Origin: Paracoccaceae bacterium
GTDB taxonomy: Bacteria; Pseudomonadota; Alphaproteobacteria; Rhodobacterales; Rhodobacteraceae
DNA length: 64,000 nucleotides
NCBI GenBank assembly: GCA_028284705.1
Contig: JANQRE010000011.1
Location: forward strand, 1-64,000
Direction of reading: 5' to 3'
The position numbers and the translations under genes are program-made. A model generated the notes under the pieces. That model was not told the DNA's origin and ran no database searches. It saw only the letters and a program-made list of their open reading frames with translations. Below, in pieces: positions 9,491-59,394 of this stretch. Positions within the stretch are counted from its first letter, which is position 1. Every line of letters begins with the position of its first letter.

Positions 9491-9495
9491 GAGGT

Positions 9496-9627
9496 TTTGC
9501 GCTTTGCTTCGCAAATCGCCGGGGGGCCGCGCTGCGGGGCAAGCCCCGCAGCCCGGCCGGATCGCTCCTGACGCAAGGCAGGGCGAACCCCCCCGGTTTG
9601 GTTTTGAGTATTTTCAGACCAGTGAAG
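9496..9627 (+). repeat. Composite palindromic repeat, copy A
   Basis: Three parts in order: a hairpin TTTGCG/CGCAAA (9496-9515), a perfect 9-bp hairpin CTGCGGGGC/GCCCCGCAG with an AA loop (9532-9551), then a conserved motif beginning GAGTATTTT and continuing to CCAGTGAAG (9606-9627). It fills the gap between the convergent hydrolase and aldolase genes, starting 6 nt after one stop and ending 3 nt before the other. The same order of parts occurs at 31345-31425 and, inverted, at 53799-53874. Confidence 0.75.
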
Positions 9628-29492: not shown

Positions 29493-30751
29493 CGGAACGG
29501 CTGCACACACTCCCCAACGGGTTTCGCATTGTCACCGAGCACATGCCGGGGCTGCAATCGGCCTCTGTCGGGGTCTGGGTCTCTGCCGGTGGACGTCATG
29601 AGCGACTAGAGCAGAACGGCATCGCGCATTTCTTGGAGCACATGGCGTTTAAAGGCACCCATCGCCGCTCCGCCCTGCAGATCGCCGAGGAAATCGAAAA
29701 TGTCGGCGGCTATATCAACGCTTACACCTCCCGCGAGGTGACCGCCTATTACGCGCGCGTGTTGAAAGACGATGTGGCGCTGGCGCTCGATGTGATCGCG
29801 GACATCCTGATGAACCCGGTTTTCGACACCCGCGAGATCGAGATCGAACGCGGCGTGATCCTGCAGGAAATCGGCCAATCGCTCGATACACCAGACGATG
29901 TGGTCTTCGACTGGCTGCAAGAGGCGGCGTTCCCCGATCAACCCATCGGCCGCACGATTTTGGGTCCCTCGGACAAGGTCTCCGGGTTTTCACGCGAGGA
30001 TTTGCAAGGGTTCGTTGCCGAGCATTACGGGCCCGAGCAGTTGATCCTCTCTGCCGCCGGTGCGGTGGATCATGACGCGATTGTGGCGCTGGCCGAAGAT
30101 CTCTTCGGCGGGCTGAAACCCCGATCCACAGTGGAGGCCGAGCAGGGGCGGTTTGTGTCCGGTGAGCGGCGTGAAGTCAAAGCGCTCGAACAGGCGCATT
30201 TCGCCATGGCGTTCGAGGCGCCCGGCTATCGCGACGATGATTTCTACACCGCGCAGATATTCTCCACCGCGTTCGGCGGTGGCATGTCCTCGCGCCTTTT
30301 CCAGGAAATCCGCGAGAAGCGGGGGCTTTGCTATTCGATCTTCAGCCAGATCGGCAGCTATTCCGATACCGGTCTGATGACGATCTACTCGGGCACTTCC
30401 GGCTCTGAGATCGGCGGTCTGGCCGACCTCACCGTGGATGAGTTGAAGCGCGCTGCCGAGGATATGAGTGCCGAGGAGATCGACCGCGCCCGCACGCAAA
30501 TGAAGGCGGGGCTTCTCATGGGGCTCGAAAGCCCGTCCTCCCGCGCCGAACGCCTCGCGCGTGTTCTGGGGATTTGGGGCCGCGTGCCGGATATCTCGGA
30601 AACGGTGGCCCGGATCGATGCCGTCGAGGCCGCCGATGTGCGCCGGTTTGCCGAAGCTGTGGCAAGCCGGGGTGAGGTCGCGATGGCGCTTTATGGTCCG
30701 GTCGAAAAGGCCCGCGATCTGGGCGCCATCACCCGGAGGCTGGCCGCCTGA
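29489..30751 (+). CDS. M16 family zinc peptidase (mitochondrial-processing-peptidase-like)
   Basis: A 420-aa pitrilysin-family protein resembling the alphaproteobacterial ancestor of mitochondrial processing peptidase beta. The inverted zinc motif HFLEH is at 47-51, with the distal glutamate near EIEIERGVILQEIGQS, and the C-terminal half has FGGGMSSRLFQEIREKRGLCYS, the R/Y substrate-binding motif. No signal peptide. Translationally coupled to thrC by a 4-nt overlap and to the next acetyltransferase gene by TGATG. Confidence 0.94.
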   Translation: MTERLHTLPNGFRIVTEHMPGLQSASVGVWVSAGGRHERLEQNGIAHFLEHMAFKGTHRRSALQIAEEIENVGGYINAYTSREVTAYYARVLKDDVALALDVIADILMNPVFDTREIEIERGVILQEIGQSLDTPDDVVFDWLQEAAFPDQPIGRTILGPSDKVSGFSREDLQGFVAEHYGPEQLILSAAGAVDHDAIVALAEDLFGGLKPRSTVEAEQGRFVSGERREVKALEQAHFAMAFEAPGYRDDDFYTAQIFSTAFGGGMSSRLFQEIREKRGLCYSIFSQIGSYSDTGLMTIYSGTSGSEIGGLADLTVDELKRAAEDMSAEEIDRARTQMKAGLLMGLESPSSRAERLARVLGIWGRVPDISETVARIDAVEAADVRRFAEAVASRGEVAMALYGPVEKARDLGAITRRLAA

Positions 30752-31335
30752 TGCTGCTTGGCAAGCGTCCCGTGCGGATCGTCACCGAACGGTTGGTGAT
30801 GCGCTTGCCGGCCCATTCGGACTTCCGCGCCTGGGCGAATTTGCGCTCCGCCTCGATCGAATTTCTAACCCCCTGGGAGCCGTCCTGGGCCAAGGATCAC
30901 CTGACCCGCAAAAGCTATACAAACCGGGTCTATTGGGCGCAGCGCTCGGTGAAGAACGGCTCCGCTGTGCCGCTCTTTCTGGAGCGCAGCGAGGATAAAT
31001 CGCTTTTGGGCGCGATTACGCTCGACAATATCCGCCGTGGGCCCTCGCAAGCCGGAACGCTCGGGTATTGGATCGGCCAGACCCATGCCCGCAAGGGCTA
31101 TATGCGCGAGGCCATCGAGGCGCTGGTGCATTACGCTTTCACCACCCTTGATCTGAGCCGGGTCGAGGCGGCCTGCCTGCCGGAAAACGATGCCTCCCGC
31201 GGTGTGCTGGAAAAGGCCGGGTTCAAATATGAAGGCGTGGCGCAGAGCTATCTGCAGATCAACGGGCGTTGGCGCAACCATGTGCTCTACGCCAATCTGC
31301 GTTCAGACCGCCGCGGGAAAACCGGTATAAGCTAG
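30751..31335 (+). CDS. GNAT acetyltransferase (RimJ-like)
   Basis: A 194-aa GNAT protein of the RimJ/RimL type, which acetylates the N termini of ribosomal proteins in E. coli. TERLVMRLPAHSD at the start, GTLGYWIGQTHARKGYMREA (acetyl-CoA binding, Q/RxxGxG/A-like) and AACLPENDASRGVLEKAGF are typical. Its start overlaps the M16 peptidase stop by one base, making it the third member of a coupled thrC-M16-GNAT set. A repeat element begins 9 nt after its stop. Confidence 0.9.
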   Translation: MLLGKRPVRIVTERLVMRLPAHSDFRAWANLRSASIEFLTPWEPSWAKDHLTRKSYTNRVYWAQRSVKNGSAVPLFLERSEDKSLLGAITLDNIRRGPSQAGTLGYWIGQTHARKGYMREAIEALVHYAFTTLDLSRVEAACLPENDASRGVLEKAGFKYEGVAQSYLQINGRWRNHVLYANLRSDRRGKTGIS

Positions 31336-31344
31336 CGGTTTCGA

Positions 31345-31425
31345 ATTGCGCGTCGCGCAATCCGACCGGTTGGGAGGGGCCAGCCCCTCCCAAACCCTCC
31401 CCGGAGTATTTTTGGACCAATGATG
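31345..31425 (+). repeat. Composite palindromic repeat, copy B
   Basis: Hairpin ATTGCGCG-T-CGCGCAAT (31345-31361), then a perfect 10-bp hairpin TGGGAGGGGC/GCCCCTCCCA with a CA loop (31371-31392), then the conserved motif starting GAGTATTTT with CCAATGA near its end (31404-31425). The order and spacing agree with copies at 9496-9627 and 53799-53874; CCGACC between the hairpins is also shared with the latter. Confidence 0.8.
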
Positions 31426-31476
31426 ATGCGGACAGTGGCGCGATTAGCGCTATTATCTGGGTCAAGGAGATTTTCC

Positions 31477-32307
31477 ATGCGCCTGATCCTGTTTTTCGTT
31501 TTCGCTGTTCTGCCCTTGGCCGCGACCGCACAAGACCGCCGACCGAGCCATTGTATTGCGCTGGCAGAGAGCACGCCGGGGATGGAATATCTGCACAAGG
31601 CCAGTTGGTCTGAGCCCGTGGTGAAGGACACGGTGCGGATCAATTACATCGACCACTCGACCTTCCTGATCCAGAGCCATGGCGGTCTAAACATGGCCAC
31701 CGATTTCACCGGATTTCTGGGCGCGGCACCGATCATCCCAGACGTGGTGACGATGAACCACGCGCATTCCTCTCACTGGACGCAGTTCCCCGATCCCGCG
31801 ATCCCGCACGTGCTGCGCGGCTGGCCGGATGAGGGCGAAGAGGTTGCCGATCACCATCTCGATCTGGGCGAAGTTCTGGTGCGCAATGTGGCGACGGATA
31901 TCCGCTCTCGCTTCGGGGTTGATGTTGAAGAGAACGGCAATTCGATCTTCATTTTCGAGGTGGCGGGGCTTTGCATCGGCCATCTGGGCCATCTCCATCA
32001 TGAGCCGAATAACGAACAATATGCGGCCATCGGGCGGCTCGATGTGGTGATGGCGGCGGTGGATGGTGGACTGACCGTGGACCTGCCGACAATGCAGAAG
32101 CTGCTGAAACGGCTGCGCGCCTCTGTCGTGATCCCGATGCATTGGTTTGGCCGCTCTACGCTCAACGCCTTCATTTCGGGCATGGGCGATGCATATCGCG
32201 TCGAGCGGACCGGCATATCCTCGATGGAAATCTCTCTGCGCGATCTGCCCTCGGAGCCCACGATCATCGTGCTGGAGCCTCAATTCCTGCGCATGCCGGA
32301 AGAATAG
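31477..32307 (+). CDS. Exported MBL-fold metallo-hydrolase-like protein
   Basis: A 276-aa protein with a signal peptide (MRLILFFVFAVLPLAATAQD) and a beta-lactamase-like fold related to the UlaG/YjgX-type L-ascorbate lactonase-like group: INYIDHSTFLIQSHGGLNMATDF, VTMNHAHSSHW, CIGHLGHLHHE and VVIPMHWF supply the likely metal histidines. Periplasmic location is inferred. The ATG at 31477 follows AAGGAG; an in-frame ATG at 31420 falls in the repeat element and would bury the signal peptide. Substrate unknown. Confidence 0.82.
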   Translation: MRLILFFVFAVLPLAATAQDRRPSHCIALAESTPGMEYLHKASWSEPVVKDTVRINYIDHSTFLIQSHGGLNMATDFTGFLGAAPIIPDVVTMNHAHSSHWTQFPDPAIPHVLRGWPDEGEEVADHHLDLGEVLVRNVATDIRSRFGVDVEENGNSIFIFEVAGLCIGHLGHLHHEPNNEQYAAIGRLDVVMAAVDGGLTVDLPTMQKLLKRLRASVVIPMHWFGRSTLNAFISGMGDAYRVERTGISSMEISLRDLPSEPTIIVLEPQFLRMPEE

Positions 32308-50912: not shown

Positions 50913-51154
50913 ATTCTGCTCTTTTTGTTTATGCGTTTTGCCCGCTTGTCGCCTGTCGTCCCCGGAATCAGGCGCTGTTGGTCGATTGTTGGGATTAGCG
51001 AGGTCTCTGTCAACGGTGATCCCCTCCATGTGGGGTGCTATGGGGAGTTATCCCCAAAATGTTGAAGTATCGAGGGGAATTCCCGCCGCGAAACCGCTCC
51101 GCAAGGTCGGAATCGATCTTGACCAGATCGCGTCAGAGGCGCAAAGTCGCGCCC
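50913..51154. other. Intergenic region between smc and the cobalamin riboswitch
   Basis: This stretch must hold the smc promoter and the promoter of the riboswitch transcript, but I cannot place either with confidence. A short hairpin TGGGG/CCCCA with an AGTTAT loop occurs near 51043-51058. No further gene is supported. Confidence 0.5.
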
Positions 51155-51345
51155 GCAAGGTTCCTCACACCCCGTGCCAAAGCACGATGAGGATGAAATG
51201 GGAATCTGGACCCGGCGACCCAATCAGGGGCCGAATGCCAGAGCCGCCCCCGCGACTGTACGCGGCGAGCGCCCGTCACGATGCCACTGGGATGTCCCGG
51301 GAAGGCGACGACGCGCAGTGACCCGCAAGCCAGGAGACCAGCCTC
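51155..51345 (+). promoter_or_regulatory. Cobalamin (B12) riboswitch
   Basis: The aptamer is recognisable by AAGGTTCC at its 5' side, a hairpin CGTGC/GCACG, ATGGGAATC, the CCCCCGCGACTGTA block, GCCACTG at 51283-51289, GGGAAGGC at 51299-51306 and the B12 box GCCAGGAGACCAGCC at 51329-51343. It lies ahead of cbtB, and binding of adenosylcobalamin should shut off the downstream cobalt-uptake and cobalamin genes. A hairpin CCCGTC/GACGGG (51364-51381) just before the cbtB ribosome site may be part of the expression platform, suggesting control of translation. Confidence 0.92.
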
Positions 51346-51397
51346 GCATGTTTGAAACCCCAACCCGTCGGGTGTGACGGGAGATGGAGAGTACCTT

Positions 51398-53352: not shown

Positions 53353-53795
53353 TCATCGAACAGGGCGACCCTCGCGACCCCGCATCGGTCGCCCTACTCG
53401 AAGCCTCTCACGCGCTTATGGAAAGCCTCTTCCCGCCCGAAGACAATCACTATCTATCCATCGACGCGCTCTGCGTGCCGGAGGTGCATTTCTTCGTCGC
53501 GCGCGACGGCAATGAGACCCTCGGCTGCGGGGCGATCAAACAGATGGACGGCTATGCAGAAGTCAAATCCATGTTCACCGCGGAAGTCGGCAGGGGCAGG
53601 GGCGTCGCCGCCGCAATCCTCAACCGGCTTGAGGCGCAAACCCGCGCCCTCAACCTCCCCGAGATGCGCCTCGAGACCGGCAACACGCTGCACGCCGCCC
53701 ACCGCCTCTACGCCCGCCATGGCTTCAAACCCTGTGGCCCTTTCGGCGATTACAAGGCCAACGACACCAGCCTCTTCATGAAGAAGTCTCTATGA
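53349..53795 (+). CDS. GNAT acetyltransferase within the cobalamin operon
   Basis: A 148-aa GNAT protein: HFFVARDGNETLGCGAIKQM, KSMFTAEVGRGRGVAAAIL (acetyl-CoA loop GRGRGVA) and YARHGFKPCGPFGDY. It is translationally coupled to cobW by a 4-nt ATGA overlap and is followed by cobN across a repeat element. The position hints at a role in cobalamin metabolism or in handling a pathway intermediate, but similar enzymes have very varied substrates and the link is unproven. Confidence 0.88.
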   Translation: MIIEQGDPRDPASVALLEASHALMESLFPPEDNHYLSIDALCVPEVHFFVARDGNETLGCGAIKQMDGYAEVKSMFTAEVGRGRGVAAAILNRLEAQTRALNLPEMRLETGNTLHAAHRLYARHGFKPCGPFGDYKANDTSLFMKKSL

Positions 53796-53798
53796 ATT

Positions 53799-53874
53799 TT
53801 CATTGGTCCGAAAATACTCCAGAGGGGGTGTGGGGGAGGCTGGCCTCCCCCAGTTGGTCGGCGCGCGAAGCGCG
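53799..53874 (-). repeat. Composite palindromic repeat, copy C (inverted)
   Basis: Read on the minus strand: hairpin CGCGC/GCGCG with a GAA/TTC loop (53862-53874), a perfect 10-bp hairpin TGGGGGAGGC/GCCTCCCCCA (53831-53852), then the GAGTATTTT...CCAATGAA motif (53819 down to 53799). The same order as copies A and B. It begins 4 nt after the acetyltransferase stop and ends 11 nt before the cobN start, where no ribosome site is visible. Confidence 0.8.
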
Positions 53875-53885
53875 GCGAAACTGAC

Positions 53886-56800
53886 ATGCATCTCCTCGCC
53901 GCCACACCCGGCTCCGTTGACGATGGCCAGGAACCCGTCGACTTGGGCCAAACCCCCGCCGATATCGTCTTCATCTCCGCCGCCGACACGGAACTCGCAG
54001 CGCTGTCGGAAGCCCGCGCCGAGATGGCGACCCCTCCGACCCTACGCCTCGCCTCACTCACCCACCTGCAACACCCGATGTCGGTCGATCTGCATGTGGA
54101 ACATTGCGCCTCAAAATCCCGCCTGATCATCGCCCGGGTCCTCGGCGGCACCGGCTACTGGTCCTACGGCATCGCGCAATATTCCGCTGCCTGCCACGCC
54201 GCCGGTATCCCCTTCGTCGCCCTTCCCGGAGATGACAAACCGGACCCCGAGCTCCGCGATCTCTCAACCGTCAGCGACGAAGACTACGCTGCCCTCTGGG
54301 CCTATCTCGTCGAAGGCGGCCCCGCCAACGCCGCGAATTTCCTCAGCTACGCCAAAGCAATGCTGGACGGAGCCGAAAAACCTCCCACCGCCGCCCCGCT
54401 CCTGCGCGCTGGTGTGTACTGGCCCGGCGCGGGCGTCTCGGATCTTGCCACCGCTCAGGCCGCGTGGACCGAGGGCCAGCCCGTCGTCCCGCTCATCTTC
54501 TACCGCGCGCTGGTGCAGGGAGCCGGCCTGAACCCGGTGAACCGCCTCACCAAAGCCCTCCTTCGCGCCGGTCTGAACCCACTCCCGATCTTCGTGGCCT
54601 CGCTTAAAGACCCGCTCAGCCAATCCACGCTCGCCACGCTTTTTGAAGCCGCCCCGCCAGACGTCATCCTAAACGCCACCAGCTTCGCCGTCGGCTCGCC
54701 GCACGCAGGCGACACCAGCCCCGAAAACCCGCTCAGCCAGCCCGCCGCCAACAAGGCCCCCGTCTTCCAGGTCGTCTTCGCCAGTTCCACCGAGGCCGCC
54801 TGGGAGGAGGCCGCTTCCGGTCTTTCCGCCCGCGACATCGCCATGAATGTCGCGCTGCCGGAGGTCGATGGCCGCATCCTGTCGCGCGCCGTCAGTTTCA
54901 AGGGCGAGGCCTTCTTTGACGAGGCCACCGAATGCGCCATCGCCACCTACCGCGCCCGCGGTGATCGTATATCCTTCGTTGCCGAGCTGGCAGCCAACTG
55001 GGCCAATCTCCGCCGCACCAACGCCGCTGACAAGAAGGTCGCGCTGATCCTCGCCAATTACCCCAACAAGGACGGGCGCCTTGCCAACGGCGTCGGCCTC
55101 GATACACCCGCCGCCACAGTGCATGTTCTCAACCTGCTGCGCGACAACGGCTACACCGTCACGCCGCCGAACGACGCCAAATCCCTGATGGATCAGATCA
55201 CGGCCGGTCCCACCAACTGGCTCACCGACCGCGCCACCCGCGAGGGCGGAGAGGCGCTCCCCCTCGACATCTATCTTGAGCACTACGCCAAACTCCCCTG
55301 GGACGTTCGCGAGCAGATCAAAACCCGCTGGGGCCCGCCCGAAAAAGACCCCTTCATTCTGGCAGAAATACTCCCCCCGGAAGGTCCGCCAGCCAAAGGT
55401 CCTGCCTTCAAACTCTCAATCCTGCGCTTTGGCAACGCGGTTGTCGGCCTGCAACCTGCCCGCGGCTACAATATCGACCCGACCGAGACCTACCATTCGC
55501 CAGACCTCGTCCCGCCCCACAACTATCTCGCCTTCTACTTCTGGCTGCGCCACCACTGGGGCGCCGATGCGCTGGTCCATATGGGCAAACATGGCAATCT
55601 CGAATGGCTGCCGGGCAAGGCTCTGGCGCTCTCCGACACCTGTTTCCCCGAGGCCATCTTCGGTCCCACGCCGCATATCTACCCGTTCATCGTCAACGAT
55701 CCCGGCGAGGGCACCCAAGCCAAGCGCCGCGGGCAAGCCGTGATCATCGACCACCTCACGCCGCCGCTCACCCGCGCTGAAACCTATGGCCCTCTGCGCG
55801 ATCTCGAGGCCCTGGTCGATGAATATTATGAGGCCGCTGGCGTCGATCCGCGCCGCATCGACCATCTGCGCCGCGAAATCCTGTCGCTCAGTGCGGTGAC
55901 CGGCCTCGACAAGGATGTCGGCATGTCCGGCTCGGACGCCGAAGGCGATCTGGCCAAGCTCGACGCCTATCTATGCGAATTGAAAGAGGCGCAAATCCGT
56001 GACGGTCTACACATTTTCGGGCATTCCCCGACCGGCGATCAGGCCCGCGATCTCGCCATCGCGCTGACCCGGGTGCCGCGCGGCGATGGCAAAGGCAAAC
56101 ACGCGTCCTTGATCCGTGCTCTGGCGGAGGATTTGAACCTCGGAGTCGACCCCCTCGATTGCGACATGGCGGACACGTATGTAGGTCCCAAACCCGCGGC
56201 TTTGTCCGGCGAAGGCGCGTGGCGAAGCAATGGTGATACGGTGGAACGGCTTGAAGCACTGGCAGTCCGCCTGCTGGACGGCGAGACGTCCCCATCAGGG
56301 GCGGCGAGCACTGCGGTTCTGGATCACATTGAAGCCGAGATCAAACCCACAATTGCCGCTTGCGGCCCGGCGGAGGGGGCGGGCCTCCTCACCGCCCTTT
56401 CAGGGCACTTCGTCGCCCCGGCGCCATCCGGCGCGCCCACCCGCGGCCGTCTCGACACACTTCCCACGGGGCGCAACTTCTTCTCCGTCGATGCCCGCGC
56501 CGTGCCAACGCCCACCGCCTGGGCTTTGGGGTGGAAATCCGCGAACCTCTTGATCGAGAAACACCTGCAAACCCATGGCGATTGGCCGCGCACCATGCTG
56601 CTCACCGCCTGGGGCACCGCAAATATGCGCACTGGTGGCGATGACATCGCGCAAGCCTTGGCCCTCATGGGCGTCAAACCCACCTGGGACAGCGCCAACC
56701 GCCGGGTGACCGGCTTCGAAATCCTGCCCCAATCGGTCCTGGACCGCCCCCGCGTCGATGTAACCCTGCGCATCTCCGGCTTTTTTCGCGACGCTTTCCC

Positions 56801-57596
56801 CCAACTCATCGCCCTTGTCGATAGTGCCGCCCGCGCGGTGATGGCCCTGGAGGAGCCCGACGATCTGAACCCCGCCGCAGCCCGCGCCCGCGCGGAAGGC
56901 GACACCGCCCGCGTCTTCGGCTCCAAACCCGGCGCTTATGGCGCGGGCCTGCAAGCCATGATTGACGAGCGCCTCTGGTCCACCCGTGCTGACCTCGGCG
57001 AGGCCTATCTCACCTGGGGCTCCTACGCCTACACCACGAAAGATGAAGGCCGCGAAGCGCGTGCAGAATTCGAACAACGCCTCACCCAGACAGAGGCCAT
57101 CGTGCAAAACCAGGACAACCGCGAACACGACATCCTCGACAGCGACGACTATTACCAGTTCGAAGGCGGCGCTGCAGCGGCCATTCACAAACTGCAGGGA
57201 CAAGATCGCCCGATCTATCACAACGATCACTCCCGCCCCGAACGCCCGGTGATCCGCACGCTTGACGATGAGATCGGCCGCGTCATGCGCTCCCGCGCGG
57301 TGAACCCGAAATGGATCGAAGGCGTCAAACGCCACGGCTACAAAGGCGCATTCGAAATGGCGGCGACGCTCGACTATCTCTTCGCCTTTGCCGCCACCAC
57401 AGGCGCCGTCAAGAACCACCACTTCGATCTGGTCTATGACGCTTATCTCGAAGACGGCGCCACGCGTGGGTTCATCGAAGAGCACAACCCGAGTGGGTTG
57501 CGCGAGATGGCGGAACGGTTTCGGGAGGCGATCGATCGCGGCCTCTGGGTGCCGCGCTCAAATTCCGCCCGTGCTCGGATCGAAACATTGACATGA
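53886..57596 (+). CDS. cobN: Cobaltochelatase subunit CobN
   Basis: Large subunit (1236 aa) of the aerobic CobNST cobaltochelatase, which inserts Co2+ into hydrogenobyrinic acid a,c-diamide using ATP. It has the family N terminus MHLLAATPGSVDDGQEPVDL and the central chelatase motifs LQPARGYNIDPTETYHSPDL (in part), HMGKHGNLEWLPGKALALS and GEGTQAKRRGQAVIIDHLTPP. No Shine-Dalgarno sequence is evident ahead of the ATG, which directly follows repeat copy C. Codons 490-500 contain an in-frame copy of the repeat motif that encodes FILAEILPPEG. cobS and cobT are not in the window. Confidence 0.96.
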   Translation: MHLLAATPGSVDDGQEPVDLGQTPADIVFISAADTELAALSEARAEMATPPTLRLASLTHLQHPMSVDLHVEHCASKSRLIIARVLGGTGYWSYGIAQYSAACHAAGIPFVALPGDDKPDPELRDLSTVSDEDYAALWAYLVEGGPANAANFLSYAKAMLDGAEKPPTAAPLLRAGVYWPGAGVSDLATAQAAWTEGQPVVPLIFYRALVQGAGLNPVNRLTKALLRAGLNPLPIFVASLKDPLSQSTLATLFEAAPPDVILNATSFAVGSPHAGDTSPENPLSQPAANKAPVFQVVFASSTEAAWEEAASGLSARDIAMNVALPEVDGRILSRAVSFKGEAFFDEATECAIATYRARGDRISFVAELAANWANLRRTNAADKKVALILANYPNKDGRLANGVGLDTPAATVHVLNLLRDNGYTVTPPNDAKSLMDQITAGPTNWLTDRATREGGEALPLDIYLEHYAKLPWDVREQIKTRWGPPEKDPFILAEILPPEGPPAKGPAFKLSILRFGNAVVGLQPARGYNIDPTETYHSPDLVPPHNYLAFYFWLRHHWGADALVHMGKHGNLEWLPGKALALSDTCFPEAIFGPTPHIYPFIVNDPGEGTQAKRRGQAVIIDHLTPPLTRAETYGPLRDLEALVDEYYEAAGVDPRRIDHLRREILSLSAVTGLDKDVGMSGSDAEGDLAKLDAYLCELKEAQIRDGLHIFGHSPTGDQARDLAIALTRVPRGDGKGKHASLIRALAEDLNLGVDPLDCDMADTYVGPKPAALSGEGAWRSNGDTVERLEALAVRLLDGETSPSGAASTAVLDHIEAEIKPTIAACGPAEGAGLLTALSGHFVAPAPSGAPTRGRLDTLPTGRNFFSVDARAVPTPTAWALGWKSANLLIEKHLQTHGDWPRTMLLTAWGTANMRTGGDDIAQALALMGVKPTWDSANRRVTGFEILPQSVLDRPRVDVTLRISGFFRDAFPQLIALVDSAARAVMALEEPDDLNPAAARARAEGDTARVFGSKPGAYGAGLQAMIDERLWSTRADLGEAYLTWGSYAYTTKDEGREARAEFEQRLTQTEAIVQNQDNREHDILDSDDYYQFEGGAAAAIHKLQGQDRPIYHNDHSRPERPVIRTLDDEIGRVMRSRAVNPKWIEGVKRHGYKGAFEMAATLDYLFAFAATTGAVKNHHFDLVYDAYLEDGATRGFIEEHNPSGLREMAERFREAIDRGLWVPRSNSARARIETLT
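55353..55385 (-). repeat. Repeat motif copy D, in frame within cobN
   Basis: On the minus strand this is the conserved motif GAGTATTTCTGCCAGAATGA (55373 to 55354), preceded by a GGGGG run as in intergenic copies. On the plus strand it encodes residues 490-500, FILAEILPPEG, between DP and PPAKGPAFKL. The same motif at 59121-59142 differs at only a few positions. Confidence 0.7.
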
Positions 57597-58356: not shown

Positions 58357-58451
58357 GATCTGTCGCGCCCCTTGGTTAATAAATCGTTCATGCCCTTGCC
58401 TTTCGGCCCCCCGCGCATCAGGTTTCCTCAGAACCTATGGGAGCCCCCACT

Positions 58452-59075
58452 ATGACCGATGACACCAGCGCTGAGGACCTCGCGCGCCACGCCCAAAAGA
58501 TGGCGAAGAAAAAAGCCGCGCGCGACAAGATCATGGCCACGAAGACCGACAAGAAAGGCCTGATCATCGTGCATACCGGCAAGGGTAAAGGCAAAAGCTC
58601 GGCCGCCTTCGGGATGATCTTCCGCTGCATCGCGCATGATATGAAATGCGCCGTGGTTCAGTTCATCAAGGGCGGCATGTCCACAGGTGAACGCGATCTC
58701 ATTCTGTCAAAATTTTCAGACACTTGTGCGTTTCACACCATGGGCGAAGGCTTCACCTGGGAGACCCAGGACAAGTCGCGCGACATCGAAATGGCGCAAG
58801 CCGCCTGGGAGAAAGCCAAGGAGCTGATCCGCGACCCCGAGAACAAGATGGTGCTTCTAGACGAGATCAATATCGCCATGCGCTACGATTATGTGGATGT
58901 GAACGAGGTTGTGGCGTTTCTGTCGTCCGAAAAACCCGAGATGACCCATGTGGTTCTCACGGGGCGCAACGCCAATGACGAGCTAATCGACGTGGCCGAT
59001 CTCGTCACCGAAATGGAGCTTGTGAAACACCCGTTCCGCTCCGGCATCAAAGCCCAGATCGGTGTCGAATATTAA
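58452..59075 (+). CDS. cobO: Cob(I)yrinic acid a,c-diamide adenosyltransferase
   Basis: Adenosylates the cobalt of reduced cobyrinic acid diamide, giving the Co-C bond of coenzyme B12. The 207-aa protein has a basic N-terminal helix and the P-loop TGKGKGKSS at 42-50, then FIKGGMSTGERDL, GEGFTWETQD and LLDEINIAMRYDYVDVNEV, all CobO/BtuR family marks. The ATG at 58452 with GGGAG 8 nt ahead is preferred to an in-frame ATG at 58437. It lies in the cobalamin block but is separated from cobN by two genes, so may have its own promoter. Confidence 0.96.
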   Translation: MTDDTSAEDLARHAQKMAKKKAARDKIMATKTDKKGLIIVHTGKGKGKSSAAFGMIFRCIAHDMKCAVVQFIKGGMSTGERDLILSKFSDTCAFHTMGEGFTWETQDKSRDIEMAQAAWEKAKELIRDPENKMVLLDEINIAMRYDYVDVNEVVAFLSSEKPEMTHVVLTGRNANDELIDVADLVTEMELVKHPFRSGIKAQIGVEY

Positions 59076-59080
59076 CCGCC

Positions 59081-59394
59081 ATTAAGGTTAACGCGCCCGC
59101 CTCTCAAACCTCCTGAGGCTTTCATTCTGGCAAAAAATACTCCCGCCGGAGGCTTTGGGCCGGCTCAGACCGCGTGACACCGGATCGGATCGCACCATGG
59201 TCAATGGTCCGAATGCGGCCAGCGCCAACCATTTGAGTATTTTTACCAGAATGAAACCAGTATCACGCGAGAGAGGCGTTGCGGTACAGGGTGGAGACCC
59301 GATGACCGCCCAGGGTGAAGCCGCTGAATTTCAGTGACTTCTTGTGCATCAGGGGGACCACGTGTGCCCCCTGGTGGCGCGCGTTAACCTTAAT
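59081..59394. repeat. Nested inverted repeats between cobO and the TPP enzyme gene
   Basis: The 334-nt gap holds no supportable gene. Its ends are a perfect 16-bp inverted pair, ATTAAGGTTAACGCGC (59081-59096) and its reverse complement (59379-59394). Inside are two opposing copies of the dispersed motif: minus strand at 59121-59142 and plus strand GAGTATTTTTACCAGAATGA at 59235-59254, almost identical. A further hairpin CAGGGGG/CCCCCTG lies at 59350-59373. Two convergent genes end here, so a terminating or insulating role is possible. Confidence 0.75.

Follow-up and report, generated by a model that had tools for sequence, protein, structure and literature searches.

A dispersed hairpin repeat of possible triplex type with a GRRTATTT module near gene ends in a Paracoccaceae bacterium and its relatives

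Which kind of element occupies the intergenic stretch at 31345-31425 was the question raised by this locus. The window (the whole stretch of DNA that was analysed, 64,000 nucleotides) had been described in an earlier note as carrying the same ordered parts at three loci, namely a CG-rich hairpin, a G-run/C-run hairpin and a nearly invariant motif, and a transcript-end element, a REP-like mobile unit or a protein-binding site had been considered. Copies 2 and 3 were found as described, while copy 1 shared only the first hairpin and the module with them; its middle was different, with a second hairpin of 8 bp placed 54 nt upstream of the module, off the rule of copies 2 and 3. The parts of the three copies and the further modules were located as below (position, strand, feature).

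31339-31369, plus: first hairpin of copy 2, TTTCGAATTGCGCGTCGCGCAATCCGACCGG, directly 3' of the stop codon of a GNAT gene (30751-31335)
31370-31379, plus: purine-rich tract R1 of copy 2, TTGGGAGGGG
31380-31383, plus: loop CCAG of copy 2, whose second base could pair with 31403, a pair that covaries family-wide
31384-31393, plus: tract Y1 of copy 2, CCCCTCCCAA, antiparallel complement of R1, making a 10-bp hairpin with it (31370-31393)
31393-31402, plus: tract Y2 of copy 2, which mirrors Y1 and is complementary to R1 in parallel, the proposed third strand, picked up by the mirror-hairpin scan
31403, plus: base G 3' of Y2 in copy 2, proposed partner of the loop
31404-31425, plus: module of copy 2, GAGTATTTTTGGACCAATGATG
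53798-53880, minus: whole copy 3, with first hairpin at 53856-53880 and module at 53799-53819
about 53822-53852, minus: R1, loop, Y1 and Y2 of copy 3, with the 9-bp hairpin TGGGGGAGG/CCTCCCCCA
9495-9627, plus: whole copy 1, with first hairpin at 9495-9522 and module at 9606-9626, no clear mirror tract
9532-9551, plus: second hairpin of copy 1, CTGCGGGG/CCCCGCAG, 8 bp
55353-55373, minus: further module with the second tail type (GAGTATTTCTGCCAGAATGAA)
59121-59142, minus: further module, GAGTATTTTTTGCCAGAATGAA, with one extra T; class B, with a short hairpin, GCCTCCGGCGG, upstream (whole 59121-59153)
59235-59255, plus: further module with the second tail type

In copy 3, Y2 (CCCCCTCT) agreed with the mirror at 7 of 8 positions, and the copy was antisense to both neighbours, a GNAT gene with its ORF end at 53795 and a CobN-type gene whose ORF runs from 53886. 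The first hairpin of copy 2 was also present, with compensating changes, in other copies of the same genome. At least three further modules existed in the window, all with the second tail type, and the modules at 59121-59142 (minus) and 59235-59255 (plus) shared an intergenic region as an inverted pair, in the manner of paired REP units. Inverted pairs of this sort were also observed at L006 and L287.

The search of the whole window against Rfam gave a cobalamin riboswitch as the sole match, and all matches within 31300-31500 were below gathering scores. The riboswitch (RF00174, 117 bits) was located at 51141-51360 on the plus strand, in a region that also holds the CobN-type gene (53886-57593) and a CobA/CobO-type adenosyltransferase gene (58437-59072).

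Dispersal of the module and its tails

The motif called nearly invariant, GAGTATTTN5CCARTGA, was indeed matched 23 times in the window's genome (G000, 4.04 Mb, 50 contigs), with 0 matches for the reversed control. A mismatch-tolerant search of this genome revealed a second tail (GAGTATTT..CCAGAATGAA), about as common as the first. GRRTATTTTTGN5ATGAAG was found in 37 of 149 family genomes (one per genus), with 1 to 27 exact modules per positive genome and a control of 0 in each genome, and the other 112 genomes had none by that pattern. The idea of a dispersed family with many copies in relatives was borne out by these scans.

The tail was often near-uniform inside one genome and different between genera: 19 modules of G132 read GGATATTTTTGGCAAGATGAAG, and the 26 listed ones among the 27 modules of G009 had the common tail GGCAAAATGAAG. 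Several tails occurred together in G035, G119 and the window's own genome. Within the window's genus, a looser module form was present in 12 of 21 genomes (own included), with species-typical tails. Among 58 copies in G158, tail positions 12, 13, 15 and 16 were invariant though left free in the pattern, and positions 9-11 and 14 varied, which disfavours the tail as copied DNA. Fixed and free positions of this kind would fit recognition by something changing between species better than simple copying, and GRRTATTT with its tail is possibly a protein-binding site.

A total of 197 distinct places was collected by module regex, a few of which (L050, L051 and L055) were clearly not elements, and three upstream classes were told apart by eye. 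Class A, the commonest, was R1-loop-Y1-linker-Y2 with Y2 mirroring Y1, and its linker held an additional hairpin in L095, L138, L175 and L178. Class B was GCCTXCGGCGX', in which X-X' was a C-G, T-A or G-C pair. A T-run or no obvious structure was seen in class C and the others. Classes B and C were without triplex tracts, and the parts upstream of the module were interchangeable.

Nested or adjoining palindromes were also seen. In L015, L018 and L228 of the window's genome a second palindrome, GTCGTCC...GGACGAC (imperfect in one), lay insert-like between Y1 and Y2, and it holds CGTC, the tetranucleotide described for alphaproteobacterial REPs. Another palindrome, of CAAGAATTTTCGTACGAAAATTCTTG type, was directly 5' of class B modules in G132 (L152, L163), and similar AT-rich palindromes were found in L352 and L353, at the orthologous GNAT site of two congeners.

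For the RAYT-type Y1 transposase (PF01797), none was identified in the window's genome (5 candidates scored). It occurred in 2 of the 37 strict-module genomes versus 13 of the 112 without strict module, a rough comparison, as G044, G097 and G099 among those 13 do carry the hairpin-mirror form. By eye, a GTAG/CGTC tag was not seen on the hairpin among the 23 copies inspected from the window's genome, CGTC being present in the nested insert of three copies. The REP-like unit with a RAYT-type transposase, as earlier proposed, was left unsupported, PF01797 being absent at home and no association being seen in relatives. No candidate recognition factor or transposase for the element was found.

At the orthologous GNAT site (gene 30751-31335), compared by eye in 21 congeneric genomes, 6 had the module: class A in G000, and class C with other tails in G150, G151, G152, G154 and G155 (the tail of G155 being degenerate). 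The other 15 genomes had no module there or had lost synteny. These modules may be separate events in G000 and its congeners, since the sequence past the module in G000 is unlike that in the other genomes with one.

Such presence and absence (6 of 21 congeners with module) could also come from a selfish repeat moved via single-stranded DNA by a putative non-RAYT transposase, with which genome-specific tails, inverted pairs (L006, L287 and 59121/59235 of the window) and the skew-linked orientation described below would agree. However, the window's genome is without Y1 transposase and no association was seen, and both the free positions within an otherwise fixed tail, which oppose simple copying, and the interchangeable upstream parts speak against it. 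We consider this explanation improbable.

Covariation of the mirror tract and the loop

The C-rich tract 3' of the second hairpin (Y2), missed by the earlier note, was the mirror of Y1, that is, the parallel complement of R1. For class A, Y2 was left free in the pattern GAGGGGN{3,9}CCCCTCN{5,14}GRRTATTT, which was run over 394 genomes (393 genera). Matches were found in 148 of them, at most 115 in one genome, and the control was 0 throughout. The GAGGGG-type element was most numerous in G401 (115), G110 (79) and G351 (52).

Among the matches listed, 45 genomes gave 110 distinct genome/sequence rows in which Y2 was scored; it was the exact mirror CTC(C)n in 88, a direct repeat in 0 and neither in 22. 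Most of these 22 rows among the matches listed were one base off, and 11 had A for T, which puts A opposite an A-T pair and is not a pyrimidine-motif triad. Longer stems obeyed the mirror rule as well, as in G035 (Y1 CCCCTCTCGC, Y2 GCTCTCCCC). For 39 unique interrupted R1 tracts, the parallel match with their own tails averaged 0.833, compared with 0.626 for the antiparallel reading and 0.705 for shuffled tails (sd 0.015, max 0.752 of 1000).

Pure G/C runs make mirror and direct repeat indistinguishable, which would leave room for chance G-run/C-run hairpins of GC-rich DNA. A module-blind scan of the window and 60 sample windows from three chromosomes gave 28 mirror hairpins, 6 of them followed by GRRTATTT and 22 without module, the latter being a point in favour of chance. 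The direct-repeat scan of the same windows found 50, with GRRTATTT following in 3, where the tract was a run of C interrupted by no more than one other base per side. On the other hand, reversed controls were 0, interrupted tracts retained the mirror, and viral contigs had 6 matches of the mirror pattern versus 0 of one direct-repeat pattern, so that chance is already contradicted and hardly credible. The phage collection gave short partial matches only.

As a mirror copy obeys no Watson-Crick pairing rule, it points to a third-strand rule. R1, Y1 and Y2 change together, in support of the selection on structure for which the earlier note had argued from hairpin changes. Three mirror-symmetric tracts permitting an intrastrand triplex were found, as in TM-ECO, BoxC and PIT repeats, and R1-loop-Y1-linker-Y2 with the loop-tail contact is, as judged from its letters, intrastrand-triplex geometry.

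The base 3' of Y2 covaried with the loop. It was scored in 79 rows among the matches listed that had a 4- or 5-base loop and a one-base tail, taking the second base of four-base loops and the third of five-base loops, and the pairs were C-G 70, T-A 8, C-A 1 and T-G 0 (Fisher 3e-10). Larger loops had 2-3 matched bases, such as TTTTGCA/GCA, TTTCACA/GTG, TTTTCCA/GGA, CTGTCTG/GA and CTGATTG/AT, giving the longer matched pairs CAC/GTG, TGC/GCA, TCC/GGA, TC/GA and AT/AT. The misfits were CTTTCTG/GC and TTGCA/GAT in G354 and CCAG/A in G392. Since this base varies with the loop, loop and tail appear to touch in the fashion of an H-type pseudoknot.

The first part of the element, in the commonest class, would be the R1:Y1 hairpin with the tail Y2 as a third strand that lies in the major groove and runs parallel to R1. 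The base or bases after Y2 would pair with the hairpin loop. The tract letters are those of a pyrimidine motif on the sense strand, and on the other strand the same letters could give a purine-motif triplex (G.G-C, A.A-T), sequence being unable to tell which of the two forms; the strand that is single-stranded at forks would carry the acid-favoured pyrimidine type, a point against the fold there. Mismatches in S1 (GT 3, GG 3, AA 3, AG 2, AC 1, others) were too few to show the functional strand by wobble pairs. A G-quadruplex on the complementary strand was set aside, many copies having only two long G-runs (by eye).

Placement at gene ends and orientation

Gene context was taken from our own ORF calls, which were crude and GC-based. 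After 37 of the 197 places were dropped, being inside a called ORF or with a neighbour missing, 160 had two flanking genes, of which 92 were tandem, 60 convergent and 8 divergent. Gene pairs in G009 were 217:75:70, and the tandem:convergent ratio of the places agrees with how many 3' ends the genes have there (217:150, p 0.74). The divergent places, 8 in number, are off that rule. The median position was 58 nt 3' of the stop codon of the co-oriented gene (123 places). Gene-end location was supported in this way, and the closeness to a stop codon claimed for each of the three copies was true of most collected copies by these ORF calls.

With intrinsic terminators the element shares a GC-rich hairpin close to the end of a gene and a T-rich tract. 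It differs from them in having Y2 and the first module bases before the T-tract, so that in class A no T-run is directly 3' of the hairpin but Y2 and GRRTA stand between, and in an orientation independent of the gene: among the 92 tandem places, 62 were sense and 30 antisense to both genes by the crude ORF calls.

The main rival explanation is an RNA 3'-end element, in which a transcript hairpin with triple helix and loop-tail contact before GRRUAUUU would terminate transcription or shield the 3' end. It would account for the gene-end location at a median of 58 nt, and GRRTATTT directly follows the last paired base, giving 8 nt to the end of TATTT; RNA can also form pyrimidine-motif triplexes, as stated in the available part of PMC4666352. 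The upstream gene is co-oriented and ends before the motif in 13/13 actinobacterial plasmid stretches as well, although the genes there are mostly unidirectional, so co-orientation tells little. The 30/92 antisense places, the weak T-tract, and L186 and L231, where the module comes after an ordinary hairpin with T-run, are against this rival, as is the distribution of antisense copies between the two strands of replication: beside leading-strand tandem genes 50/57 modules were sense and 7/57 antisense, and beside lagging-strand tandem genes 10/33 were sense and 23/33 antisense. The transcript-end element of the earlier note fits in its gene-end placement and is weakened by antisense copies and skew-linked orientation; we regard it as possible, though rather doubtful.

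On the basis of 3-kb skew, 147 of 187 modules were on the G-rich strand (the 197 places minus 10 without assigned genome). The numbers were 56/71 for class A, 37/45 for class B and 54/71 for the others, and 23 of the 30 copies antisense to both neighbours still followed the skew. The GC skew of G009 switches sign at 1.10-1.26 and at 2.72-2.88 Mb. Of the 26 copies listed for this genome, 21 were on the leading strand, one of them in an unsampled zone near the terminus, compared with 207 among 382 genes. The sign of the 3-kb skew was used as arc proxy in other genomes because it equalled the arc in 113 of 120 G009 windows. For G104, 5 of 7 listed copies (of 12) agreed with skew by nearest windows, some of them near zero. 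In the window itself the skew was weakly positive, weak left of 40 kb and negative beyond about 40 kb; the modules at 53799, 55353 and 59121 were on the minus strand, those at 9606 and 31404 on the plus strand, and the one at 59235 was against the local skew.

Since the triplex-free classes B and C show the polarity too, it belongs to the module. The triplex itself as cause of the polarity was rejected, the classes without triplex being equally biased.

KOPS and Chi are polar chromosome marks read by a translocase or a recombination enzyme, and by analogy the element could be such a mark, as polarity is present in every class and the module is nonpalindromic and bipartite. Nevertheless, exact modules number 1 to 27 in the 37 positive genomes and are absent by that pattern from 112 others, the placement is at gene ends, 40 of 187 copies are oriented opposite, and G288, with its patchy skew, has no polarity (5/10 listed copies agreed by nearest windows, some near zero). 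A role of this type seems very improbable to us.

Orientation goes with skew and not with genes, which is why a DNA-level reading is preferred over RNA. The fold would form in single-stranded DNA, on the lagging-strand template at forks and perhaps also in entering plasmid DNA. The second part, GRRTATTT with its genome-specific tail, resembles a site read by a sequence-specific factor, and the recogniser would be a factor evolving along with the tail; this factor may either move the element or treat it as a mark. To account for covariation in all three tracts, for the loop-tail pair and the module, for the gene-end location and for the co-orientation with skew seen in pooled genomes, we give an even chance to a dispersed REP-like element of two parts, a triplex-type hairpin and the module, whose fold acts in single-stranded DNA.

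Known systems and meaning of the element

The earlier note knew of no named family, yet intrastrand-triplex repeats (BoxC/PIT/TM) are a known kind that the element would work like. In the available part of PMC4666352, bacterial intrastrand triplex repeats including TM-ECO/BoxC/PIT are stable in vitro with function unassigned, and the E. coli ones are without in vivo footprint, promoter or terminator activity. Like the repeats in that part of the source, the element is scattered between genes, its three tracts have the geometry of an intrastrand triplex and its G/C runs are interrupted; some copies form inverted pairs, and copy number varies widely among relatives. It differs from TM-ECO as described there in the tract order on the G-rich strand (Y-R-R in TM-ECO, R-R-Y here, R-Y-Y on the other strand), in its skew orientation, TM-ECO having no strand bias, and in GRRTATTT with its tail plus the loop-tail pair, no fixed downstream module being described for TM-ECO. 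The published TM-ECO pattern, CCCTCNCCC N3-6 GGGNGAGGG N3 GGGNGAGGG, had 0 matches in its exact form in 431 sequences (2.47 Mb, both strands).

REP superfamilies, GTAG and CGTC, come with RAYT transposases in the available part of PMC3733652. The element is like these REPs in being a short extragenic palindrome of many copies, some paired, and unlike them as far as described there in the absence of RAYT from its own genome and in the extra mirror tract and module. It is also like H-type pseudoknots with triple helices (SAM-V and guanidine-III riboswitches, as partly described) in the hairpin, the tail in the groove and the loop-tail pairing; unlike those, it is at gene ends in both orientations, with a third strand spanning most of the stem. 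RNA motifs from Rhodobacterales that are of a different sort (PMC8632094) and the link of IS200/IS605 with the lagging strand (PMC6006769) were found in the available parts of those papers.

Outside the family, actinobacterial plasmids also carry the hairpin-mirror, there without GRRTATTT. In 13 stretches (L418-L427, L405, L406 and L409) the motif was intergenic and 3' of a co-oriented annotated gene in every case, often behind another hairpin, and it was present twice in 4 of them. ParA, ParB, ArdC or SSB genes were held by 12 of the 13, the exception being L426. The mirror covaries here as well, with GTGAGGGG and ACTCCCC in L409 and L422 and GCTCCCC instead in L419, and loop-tail pairing was looser (10 of 16 copies fit, by eye). 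Hairpin-mirrors without GRRTATTT were also observed in two small Roseobacter-group plasmids (L429, L430), where the genes upstream are a type IV secretory conjugative-transfer gene and a hypothetical one.

Judged from their gene names, the actinobacterial stretches would be conjugative leading regions. Plasmid leading regions carry Frpo single-strand promoters in the available part of PMC11541004, and the actinobacterial motif resembles that setting in standing among leading-region-type genes (ArdC, SSB, ParB), whereas its place 3' of stop codons would suit a gene end just as well. A single-stranded-DNA signal made of hairpin, third strand and loop-tail contact, common to family chromosomes and actinobacterial conjugation-related plasmid regions and read by a fast-evolving factor, is a tentative and rather unlikely extension; it would be exposed on the lagging-strand template in chromosomes and on entry in plasmids.

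The element is, by comparison of its copies, real, widespread and structured, and its details are new as far as searched, while its kind is known. A description of it was not found in the literature covered (subscription papers being outside the scope), and the ITxF database of PMC4666352 may list such tracts; a query with the motif letters gave unrelated papers only, and PMC2267715 held none of the terms sought.

The in vivo meaning of bacterial intrastrand triplexes is an old question. The third strand covaries with the hairpin in many genera, and the loop-tail pair does so separately, which gives comparative evidence for the fold; covariation, its sole basis, suggests that a triplex-type fold is kept by selection. 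We know of no earlier triplex with three strands shown by covariation to be selected, and the signal shared with plasmids, if true, would be one. The covarying copies offer many natural variants for direct tests, and a specific lead to follow comes from each of three features: the placement at gene ends, the module, and the orientation linked to skew.
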